DNA of 64,000 nucleotides from Woeseiaceae bacterium (GTDB lineage Bacteria; Pseudomonadota; Gammaproteobacteria; Steroidobacterales; Woeseiaceae): the NCBI GenBank assembly GCA_021773135.1, contig JAJFKP010000030.1, positions 1-64,000 of the forward strand, in the 5' to 3' direction. The position numbers were made by a program, and so were the translations under genes. Below the pieces are notes generated by a model. That model was given only the letters and a program-made list of their open reading frames with translations. It was not told the DNA's origin and did not search any database. Shown here piece after piece: positions 14,339-16,492 of this stretch. Numbering within the stretch: the stretch's first letter is position 1; every line of letters begins with the position of its first letter.

Positions 14339-16492
14339 TCAATAGACATCATGCAACGTGTTGTAGACGTTGAATTTGCCAGTCGGCGTGATGATCTCCG
14401 GCCCCTTGATGACATTCTTCAACTCACGTGTCTTGTCATCGACAACGACAATGGCGGATTCCTCTTCCTGTCCACTCCACACCGAGAACCACACTTCATC
14501 ACCGGCCTGGTTGTATTCCGGCTGCACGATGCGTTTCGGTCCGGGGCCAAGATCCGCCCACTCGCCAATCGGCAAGGATACGAATCCGTCGTCAAGGTTG
14601 TCGATGTCGAAGACCGCGATACTCTGGCTCGCGCTTTCATCCGGATTCAACGGTGCGTCAACCCAGAGATTGGTCGAATTCGGGTGCGACTTCACGAACA
14701 GAGAGCCGCCGCCCATGCCCTGCAGCACCCGTACGACCTTCCATGCGTTGTCGGGGTAGCCCTCAGGATCGGTGCCCAGGAAGGTAATGTTGGCGTTGCC
14801 AAGGGCACTGGTTACCCAGACAGGACCAAACTCGGGATCGATGATATTGGCGCCGCGTCCCGGGTGCGGGATCTTCTCAACATCAACAAGCGCCTCCAGT
14901 TCGCGATCTCTGGAATCAACGATTGCAATCTTGTCTGATTGATTGGCCGCCGTGAGGAAGTAGCGCTTCGTACGGTCCCAACCACCATCATGCAGAAATC
15001 TGGCGGCGCCGATATCGGTGACACTCAGATTCTCTATATCTTCGAAATTGACCAGCAGGATATGCCCGGTCTCTTTCACATTGACGATAAACTCCGGATG
15101 TTCGTGAGAAGCAACGATTGCTGCAACGCGCGGTTCAGGATGATACTCCTGCGTGTCTACCGTCATGCCTCGCGTTGAAACGATTTTGAGCGGCTCAAGT
15201 GTGTCACCGTCCATGATGACGTACTGCGGCGGCCAGTAAGCACCGGCAATCGCGTACTTGTCTTCATATCCCGTGTATTTTGAAGTCTCAACCGAGCGGG
15301 CTTCCAGACCAATCTTGATTTCGGCAACGATAGCGGGTTGCTCCATCCACAGATCGATCATGTCCACTTTTCCGTCACGACCAATGGTAAGGACGTACCG
15401 TCCCGACGCAGAAACACGGGAAATATGTACCGCGTAGCCTGTTTTGAGGATGGCAACGATTTCCTTGGTATCGCCGTCGATAATCGCGACCTGGCCGGAA
15501 TCGCGCAGCGTTACTGAGAAGAAATTCTCAATATTGCGATCATGTTCCGGCGCGGACGGTCGATCCTCTGGCGGAATCAGCACTGTCCACGAATCGCGCA
15601 TTTCCGGCATGCCGAACTCAGGCGGCGCTGGTGGTTCCTGCTGCAGGAACCTTGCCATGATGTCGATTTGCTCAGGCGTTAATTCACCCGAGCTACCCCA
15701 GTTGGGCATGCCAGCTGGCGACCCGTAAGTTATCAATGCCTTTAAATAATCCGTTCCCTTTTCAGAAGTAATATCGGGCGTCAGCGGTTTACCGGTCGCG
15801 CCTTTGCGCAGTACCCCATGACAGCCGGCGCATCGTTCAAAATAAAGCGTCGTTGCGACGGAGTATTCTGCTTCGCTCAATACGGGACCACCCGCACCCA
15901 TGACCTGGCGAGTATCTTCCGGGGCGATTGCCGACGGCGAGCCACGGTAGCGCAGCTCGCCTTCCGTCGCACCAGTATGTCGTTGACCTGCCACCATATC
16001 GCCGGATGCACCGAGTTCTGCCCGCAATGCTGTAACTTCTTCGACAGAAACAGCGGCTTCAGAATTACCCCACGAGGCAAAGACATAGGTAAGCGCTGCG
16101 GCCAGCTCCTCGTCGGCAAGGTAGCCCATGCTGGGCATCACGCCGTTGTAGTCGGTGCCGTTAACCGTGATCGGACCTGAGAGACCGAACAGTGCTGCCT
16201 GCATGACCTCTTTCCGGTTACCCTGCAGGAAATCCGATTGGGCCAGCGGTGGAAAAGCACCCGGCAAGCCCTGCCCGTTTGGCTGATGACAGGCAGCGCA
16301 ATTCGCGAGATAGACCGCCTCGCCGCTTGCCATCAGGTCGCCCACCGCACCGCTTGCAACTTCCGCATTGTGCACAGCGGTATCCGCGGCCGGGGCCGCC
16401 GCCTCGTCGTTGCTCGCCTCTTCTGCACAGGCGCCTAACGCAAGTGCTGCGATCGTGACCAGCAAGATTCGAAGATCCATGGAAGCTTTCAT
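14339..16492 (-). CDS. nirS: cytochrome cd1 nitrite reductase with extra N-terminal cytochrome c domain
   Basis: Periplasmic NO-forming nitrite reductase, 717 residues, about 150 longer than usual NirS. An N-terminal lipobox (LALGAC, Cys22) suggests membrane anchoring. A first cytochrome c domain (about 50-142) has CAACH at Cys65-His69. A second, the normal NirS c-domain, has CAGCH at Cys221-His225 in [19 protein letters not shown]. From about residue 300 the d1 propeller follows, nearly textbook: [67 protein letters not shown] (His451, His463), FLHDGGW (His501) and a C-terminal [14 protein letters not shown] 16492 has AGGAG 7 bases upstream; the frame stays open to 16543. No haem d1 synthesis genes lie in the window. 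Second gene after a TonB receptor (37 bp gap). Confidence 0.95.

Follow-up and report, generated by a model that had tools for sequence, protein, structure and literature searches.

A cytochrome c-cytochrome cd1 nitrite reductase encoded beside a TonB-dependent receptor in Woeseiaceae: possible import of haem d1

Introduction

How does a cytochrome cd1 nitrite reductase obtain its haem d1 where the known markers of d1 synthesis are missing, and what feeds it electrons? This question is raised by a nirS gene of a Woeseiaceae bacterium (GenBank assembly GCA_021773135.1). The window analysed here is the whole stretch of 64,000 nucleotides at positions 1 to 64,000 of contig JAJFKP010000030.1. As outlined in PMC13168839, haem d1 is derived from sirohaem via NirDLGH, NirJ, NirF together with NirC, and NirN.

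Results

An intact nirS gene with an additional cytochrome c domain

The host genome comprised 4.55 Mb in 64 contigs and was 99.67% complete. The nirS reading frame ran unbroken from an ATG at 16492 to a stop at 14339 on the minus strand and contained the following features:

14339..16492, minus strand: nirS, encoding a c-c-d1 cytochrome cd1 nitrite reductase of 717 aa (open reading frame, Pfam and structure matches)
16427..16492, minus strand: putative signal peptide and lipobox LGAC, with lipidation at Cys22 and Ala at +2 (by eye)
16082..16330, minus strand: extra N-terminal class I cytochrome c domain, residues 55-137 (Pfam Cytochrom_C)
16286-16300, minus strand: CAACH motif of the extra c domain, residues 65-69 (sequence and alignment)
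15644..15853, minus strand: usual NirS cytochrome c domain, residues 214-283 (Pfam, best match Cytochrome_CBB3)
15818-15832, minus strand: CAGCH motif of the usual NirS c domain, residues 221-225 (sequence and alignment)
14357..15535, minus strand: haem d1 beta-propeller, residues 320-712 (Pfam Cytochrom_D1, E 7e-147)

The protein thus combined the c-type haem domain and the d1 propeller that define NirS. The layout in the original prediction, a lipobox followed by an extra cytochrome c, the usual c domain and d1, proved to be real, with Pfam recovering the domains and both motifs lying at the predicted residues. A frameshift or misassembly joining two genes had been named as what would overturn it; this objection failed, as the frame was continuous and each of the best 80 of at least 581 relatives carried two CxxCH motifs. 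We ruled out an assembly error or frameshift on the layout common to these best 80 relatives, and because the same layout recurs in metagenome-assembled genomes (MAGs) and isolates of several families, the fusion is not an artefact; an intact c-c-d1 gene is confirmed.

In an alignment of 39 sequences, the Cys and His residues of both CxxCH motifs were invariant, as was Met119-Pro120 of the extra c domain, which likely provides the sixth haem ligand of this domain. Met262 of the usual c domain corresponded to Met88 of Pseudomonas aeruginosa NirS, and His356, His501 and His543 of the propeller corresponded to His182, His327 and His369. The predicted structure had a pLDDT of 76.7, with the linker at residues 164-187 below 50; an argument from haem distances was dropped, since the placement between the two c domains was too uncertain.

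The extra domain resembles the cytochrome c of three-domain NirK

The extra domain had been expected to resemble NirM or c55x, the soluble electron donors. This expectation was not borne out: among solved structures, its best relatives were the c domain at the C-terminal end of Ralstonia-type NirK (E about 1e-29) along with Thermus c552, and none of the 36 PDB sequences matching the domain at E ≤ 1e-3 was named c551. On the best solved matches, a NirM-type donor was set aside in favour of a NirK-type c domain. The three-domain NirK structures, 3ziy and 4ax3, which we take to be of the Ralstonia type, share this homologous haem c domain with the c-c-d1 enzyme but belong to a different catalytic enzyme, and their c domain is C-terminal rather than N-terminal. 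Since the domains are homologous, two unrelated nitrite reductases carry a related attached cytochrome. Judging from its domain type, the extra cytochrome c would feed the usual c domain (C2) as a tethered donor.

The original prediction also included a lipid anchor, which held for this species but not for the family. In the window protein, the signal peptide ended in a lipobox Cys (LGAC, Cys22), and the NirS of this species is probably lipidated. Under the general Lol rule, Ala at +2 is expected to lead to outer-membrane sorting. A simple rule, which misses some likely cases, detected a lipobox in 30 of 89 c-c-d1 rows; the anchor was dropped as a necessary part of the mechanism because of this count.

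The c-c-d1 architecture is widespread

Relatives were collected by scanning genome contigs with the whole protein, and the best 80 of at least 581 confirmed matches were kept. As this set was picked by whole-protein similarity, it is biased towards c-c-d1 proteins and reveals wide spread rather than frequency among NirS. Two CxxCH motifs were present in all 80 kept relatives, and the spacing between them was 150-159 residues in 87 distinct c-c-d1 proteins. Among the matches listed, the closest were MAGs labelled Woeseiaceae or Gammaproteobacteria, with 78-82% identity over the best segment. The carriers among the best 80 were mainly Gammaproteobacteria, together with Sulfidibacter and MAGs labelled Acidobacteria, Verrucomicrobiota and Opitutales; isolates were found in Marinicella, Wenzhouxiangella, Pseudidiomarina, Kangiella, Dokdonella, Luteimonas, Arenimonas and Sulfidibacter. 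At one locus (L053), a c-c-d1 nirS with an internal stop lay next to an open receptor gene; it was excluded from the alignment owing to the stop.

A search for the architecture and a phylogeny, two of the checks proposed for the fusion, were both run and revealed that c-c-d1 is widespread and that its rows group together. In the tree of the c2-d1 part, 89 c-c-d1 rows clustered apart from 21 canonical sequences and that of P. aeruginosa, the root being chosen by hand, with no support value shown for the c-c-d1 node and with varying inner supports. L157 (identical to L074) and L142 (identical to L082) were excluded from the tree and the residue counts; L158 (identical to L044) and L159 (identical to L035) stayed in, so that the 89 rows represent 87 distinct proteins.

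Proteins of this architecture were already known: in 2022, Schwartz et al. (PMC8756737) reported C1-C2-NirS from Chloroflexi and stated it to be unique to that phylum, and the Chloroflexi form is placed in NirS clade 1g in the account of Pold et al. (2024; PMC10999283). Compared with the published description in PMC8756737, the window protein has the same domain order, with C1 N-terminal to C2 and d1, and the same proposed tethered donor; unlike the form described there, the c-c-d1 type found here occurs mainly in Gammaproteobacteria. The c-c-d1 loci in Gammaproteobacteria and other groups show that the architecture is not unique to Chloroflexi.

The d1 pocket is conserved

Upon comparison with P. 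aeruginosa NirS (1nir, 6tpo), the c2-d1 part was found to be 67-68% identical, with the haem ligands and active-site histidines in common; the window NirS differed in its extra N-terminal cytochrome c and its TonB receptor neighbour. In particular, Tyr10, the CxxCH motif, Met88, Arg156, His182, His327 and His369 (P. aeruginosa numbering) were invariant in 89 of 89 c-c-d1 rows (87 distinct), which thus all retain the haem c ligands, the d1 ligand His182 and the catalytic pair His327/His369.

We identified 151 positions that were invariant in 21 canonical NirS sequences, P. aeruginosa NirS and five c-c-d1 enzymes from genomes with d1 genes. In the other 84 c-c-d1 rows, 146 of these were at least 95% the same; for the d1 domain, the corresponding numbers were 123 of 126. 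No column was fixed differently between c-c-d1 enzymes with and without d1 genes (at least 4/5 versus at least 80%). Because the d1 ligands and the pocket are conserved, the same cofactor is expected in the c-c-d1 enzymes of genomes without d1 genes, and the enzyme still looks d1-dependent.

Known markers of haem d1 synthesis are missing

The marker searches covered NirJ, NirF/NirN (PF02239) and NirDLGH (PF17805). In the host genome, the single PF02239 match was NirS itself, leaving no NirF or NirN, and the profile searches found neither NirJ nor NirDLGH. Unlike the P. aeruginosa system, most of the c-c-d1 genomes searched likewise lacked NirF, NirJ and NirDLGH, the set that marks a canonical nir system. 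As part of our best explanation, this organism would produce no haem d1 through the known pathway.

The pattern extended to the host family, in which the NirS d1 domain was complete (over 470 bits) in 53 of 107 genomes, a few of the frames being cut by contig ends. None of these 53 contained a second full PF02239 match, and NirJ was over the cut-off in 0 of the 107 (best match 129 bits versus 515). We also used an even class sample of 369 Gammaproteobacteria with a NirJ threshold of E ≤ 1e-60. A complete NirS d1 domain was found in 41 genomes, with frames of up to 706 aa in 36 (21 verified as canonical by one CxxCH, the remainder called by frame length) and a c-c-d1 protein in 5. NirJ was present in 35 of the 36 versus 0 of the 5 (Fisher p 8e-6, a value that overstates the evidence because the genomes are related). 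The one canonical-type genome also without NirJ, G302, counts against the import reading.

Among 20 genomes reached through c-c-d1 loci, NirJ together with NirF/NirN-level matches was found only in Sulfidibacter corallicola. A second set of 17 genomes, one of them common to the first, had NirJ over the cut-off in 3. For PF02239, the 16 second-set genomes new to the search contained NirS plus two more propellers in these 3 NirJ genomes and in that of locus L110, and NirS only in the remaining 12. Across 28 genomes, PF17805 occurred four times in every one of the 5 canonical NirS controls, and so too in G248, G251 and Sulfidibacter; the remaining 20 c-c-d1 genomes, the single-contig G105 among them, had no copy. 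Two sample entries, G125 and G457, are the same genome.

A separate observation concerned genomes with d1 genes. G248 and G251 carried such genes with no NirS-level match, and class-sample genomes such as G135, G188, G248, G251 and G337 had NirJ and several PF02239 matches (up to about 410 bits), none at NirS level. Such genomes may carry d1 genes with NirN-like proteins only, or may encode a divergent NirS.

A TonB-dependent receptor is encoded next to nirS

The gene directly upstream of nirS ends 37 bp before the nirS ATG on the same strand:

16530..18746, minus strand: TonB-dependent haem-type receptor (PhuR-like), proposed haem d1 importer (TIGR01785, Pfam, fold and linkage)

Pfam recovered both the plug and the beta-barrel, and the TIGR01785 score was just over the cut-off (318.9 versus 316.85 bits), in line with a TonB haem receptor. 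PhuR (8the) was the closest solved relative by sequence (E 1e-71) and the top fold match of the model (TM 0.85-0.88). The receptor shared with PhuR and its relatives ChuA, ShuA and HasR the fold, a TIGR01785 score over the cut-off and the motif boxes, which we take to be those named FRAP and NPDL; such motifs were kept in 38 aligned nirS-linked receptors. It differed from PhuR in being only 27% identical and encoded beside nirS. ShuA-type receptors have a conserved haem-coordinating His in the FRAP/NPNL loop. The 38 linked receptors had no conserved His between the two motifs, which might hint at a ligand other than ordinary haem.

For the linkage count, an HMM was built from nirS-linked receptors and a strong match within 2.5 kb of nirS was scored. 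Such a match was present in 65 of 80 relatives (the best 80 of at least 581) versus 0 of 20 canonical loci, 2 of which had flanks shorter than 5 kb. The window and all 6 additional distinct c-c-d1 loci had it as well; one extra canonical locus (0/1) did not. Among 136 ORFs within 3 kb of the 20 canonical nirS genes, Pfam gave no TonB family in the 25 of 67 families listed, the others having at most one ORF each. In 70 of 72 distinct linked pairs, receptor and nirS were no more than 300 bp apart, and the receptor lay upstream on the same strand in 41 of these loci, downstream on the same strand in 13, upstream on the opposite strand in 13 and downstream on the opposite strand in 5.

In the class sample of 369 Gammaproteobacteria, the receptor was adjacent to nirS in 5 of 5 c-c-d1 genomes. 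Among the 364 others, at least 9 had receptor homologues at E ≤ 1e-70 (2 candidates scored per genome). The homologue of G385, which has no c-c-d1 protein, ranked above that of the c-c-d1 genome G467, and the canonical nirS genome G436 had an unlinked homologue of 33% identity; the wider receptor subfamily is therefore not dedicated to nirS. The linked receptors formed one clade among 81 sequences, with a support of only 0.61; the 71 linked receptors in this tree include two repeats (L158 and L159). One locus also had a second, more distant homologue (L045:19725-21917; 836 bits, 7.6 kb from nirS).

The receptor and the d1 genes replace each other among relatives

NirJ was over the cut-off in 0 of 22 receptor-linked genomes searched, drawn from 65 linked loci. 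Of the long-flank loci without a TonB match within 2.5 kb, 8 in all, 4 had NirJ over the cut-off and L110 had a divergent set. The contrast gave p 0.0004 with L110 and 0.003 without it, values that again overstate the evidence because the genomes share ancestry. The test excluded L073, L081 and L106 (short flanks), L058, L070 and L077 (other TonB receptor) and L075 (receptor fragment), and counted L076 as receptor-less despite a gapped TonB-receptor ORF directly upstream.

The 15 of 80 relatives (best 80 of at least 581) without a strong linked receptor were of several kinds. Four (L058, L070, L076 and L077) had a different TonB receptor with partial scores directly upstream of nirS, its gene being gapped in L076 and split in L077, and L075 retained a truncated receptor fragment. 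L073, L081 and L106 lay near contig ends; a receptor was found elsewhere in the genomes of L073 (about 54 kb from nirS) and L106. Four loci, L074 (Sulfidibacter), L079, L080 and L098, had NirJ over the cut-off without a strong adjacent receptor; a TonB-receptor match at 3.0 kb upstream of nirS in L074 was weak (98 bits). L110 had a divergent NirJ of about 370 bits, below the cut-off, in a genome match that counts one stop, together with sirohaem decarboxylase subunits over the cut-off and two further propellers beside nirS. The carriers of d1 genes fell at four places in the tree: L074 with L063, L110 with L070, L098 with the receptor-bearing L103, and L079 with L080.

For L063, L084 and L081, no NirJ over the cut-off and no match to the receptor turned up anywhere in the genome; these three loci fit neither the receptor nor the d1-gene pattern. 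The best NirJ match of L063 was 190 bits, below the cut-off, and the contig of L081 ended 285 bp before nirS. In the genome of L081 (G498), two matches reached NirS level, one of them in a frame of 605 aa and the other a c-c-d1 protein; at E ≤ 1e-30 this genome had neither NirJ nor the receptor, and PF02239 gave nothing more at E ≤ 1e-10. Near the nirS gene of L084 were a porin-like gene and, by eye, a CRP/FNR-like gene.

Other neighbours and regulation

Three further genes around nirS recurred at other loci:

13054..14307, minus strand: outer-membrane porin-like protein, possible third gene of the unit (PF13372 over the cut-off, Opr-like below)
10706-11320, plus strand: FixJ-like response regulator (by eye; cluster in 11 of 81 loci)
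19302-21194, minus strand: PAS-PAS histidine kinase-receiver protein (Pfam; cluster in 8 of 81 loci)

The ATG of the porin-like gene lay 31 bp after the nirS stop, so that receptor, nirS and porin all shared one strand; an ortholog was present in 29 of 81 loci, at a median of 15 bp downstream of nirS. The protein is possibly a channel for nitrite or a haem carrier. The FixJ-like regulator and the histidine kinase-receiver gene flanked the nirS unit.

A CRP/FNR-like regulator gene (by eye) was also seen near nirS in 22 of 81 loci (e.g. L038:6856-7603 and L084:11430-12137). In 32 receptor-first loci, an FNR-like box with at most 1 mismatch was found in 14 versus 2.7% of 640 shuffles; Fur-box matches, even the best, had 7 to 10 mismatches of 19. 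The best FNR-like box of the window itself had 2 mismatches and matches across the window were at chance level; we therefore propose no FNR/DNR-type control for this genome.

Discussion

The sequences show the intact fusion, the conserved d1 pocket, the missing d1 markers, the receptor linkage and the exchange of receptor and d1 genes among relatives. We consider it probable that this locus encodes a tethered-donor c-c-d1 nitrite reductase whose haem d1 is imported through the nirS-linked TonB receptor; we infer what the receptor carries, that d1 reaches NirS and which way the electrons flow. Weighing against import, besides G302, are the three loci with neither NirJ nor receptor, the distant receptor of L073, the weak TonB match in Sulfidibacter with its d1 genes, the receptor homologues in other class-sample genomes, the low support for the clade of linked receptors and the chance-level FNR-like box of the window. 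The c-c-d1 NirS would be a working enzyme that converts nitrite to NO, with electrons passing from the extra N-terminal cytochrome c to the normal c domain and on to d1. Other NirS denitrifiers would release haem d1 or a near-finished form, which the receptor next to nirS would take up and deliver into the periplasm. The periplasm would also be where the usual machinery attaches haem c and where apo-NirS picks up the non-covalent d1, with no transport across the inner membrane. TonB receptors deliver their cargo to the periplasm; because d1 is non-covalent and is inserted in this compartment, its import would bypass the whole cytoplasmic pathway. A lipid-anchored NirS, as here, could sit at the same membrane as the receptor. 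NirN action and d1 insertion are described as periplasmic in PMC13168839, and PMC3694632 reports d1 transfer from NirN to NirS in vitro and cites papers on reconstitution with d1.

The organism might instead make d1 by an unrecognised, non-homologous pathway, and the receptor would then provide iron or ordinary haem to a respiratory enzyme rich in haem. With its pocket conserved, the enzyme needs some source of d1, and PhuR, a haem receptor, is the closest solved relative of the receptor; however, we regard this alternative as unlikely. Among the recurrent neighbours of nirS, no biosynthesis gene stands out as a candidate, the top three being the receptor, the porin and the CRP/FNR-like gene, and such a pathway leaves unexplained both the c-c-d1 relatives that keep d1 genes without a strong receptor next to nirS and the lack of a nearby receptor at canonical nirS (0 of 20 loci). 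We judge it improbable that the propeller binds some other imported tetrapyrrole (haem b, sirohaem or a porphyrin from the sediment), the nitrite reductase activity being altered or lost: absent d1 markers beside an adjoining tetrapyrrole-type receptor would suit this idea, but the near-complete retention of the invariant d1-domain positions and the lack of any differently fixed column speak against it. Finally, a plain co-inherited anaerobiosis operon, in which the profiles or incomplete assemblies missed the d1 genes and the receptor is irrelevant to d1, is very improbable: many of the genomes are MAGs and receptor homologues exist without nirS, but near-complete genomes and one single-contig genome also lacked the marker families, the same searches detected NirDLGH in all five canonical controls and NirJ in nearly all canonical-type genomes, and the varied side and strand of the receptor relative to nirS across lineages are not predicted by inheritance of one fixed operon.

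In the open-licence papers searched, we found no earlier report either of d1 import or of nirS-TonB linkage; if true, import through the nirS-linked receptor would be the first proposed uptake route for haem d1 as far as that literature shows. For the clade as a whole, the evidence leans slightly towards c-c-d1 enzymes, common in sediment bacteria of the Woeseiaceae type, that run on pirated d1 as a public good brought in by a dedicated outer-membrane receptor; within the clade, losing d1 synthesis and acquiring the receptor would be interchangeable.

The presence of nirS genes serves to infer denitrification potential. Woeseiales are described as transcribing nirS through surface sediments (PMC7451513) and are credited, in the account of PMC12175321, with a truncated pathway that releases N2O. 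If the NirS of Woeseiales needs imported d1, the presence or transcription of nirS alone would not equal activity, and pure cultures could look nitrite-negative. The import of d1 is directly testable with existing isolates. If it is true, nitrite respiration in these Woeseiaceae-type sediment bacteria would depend on their neighbours, and sediment denitrification would partly be a cofactor-sharing trait of the community.
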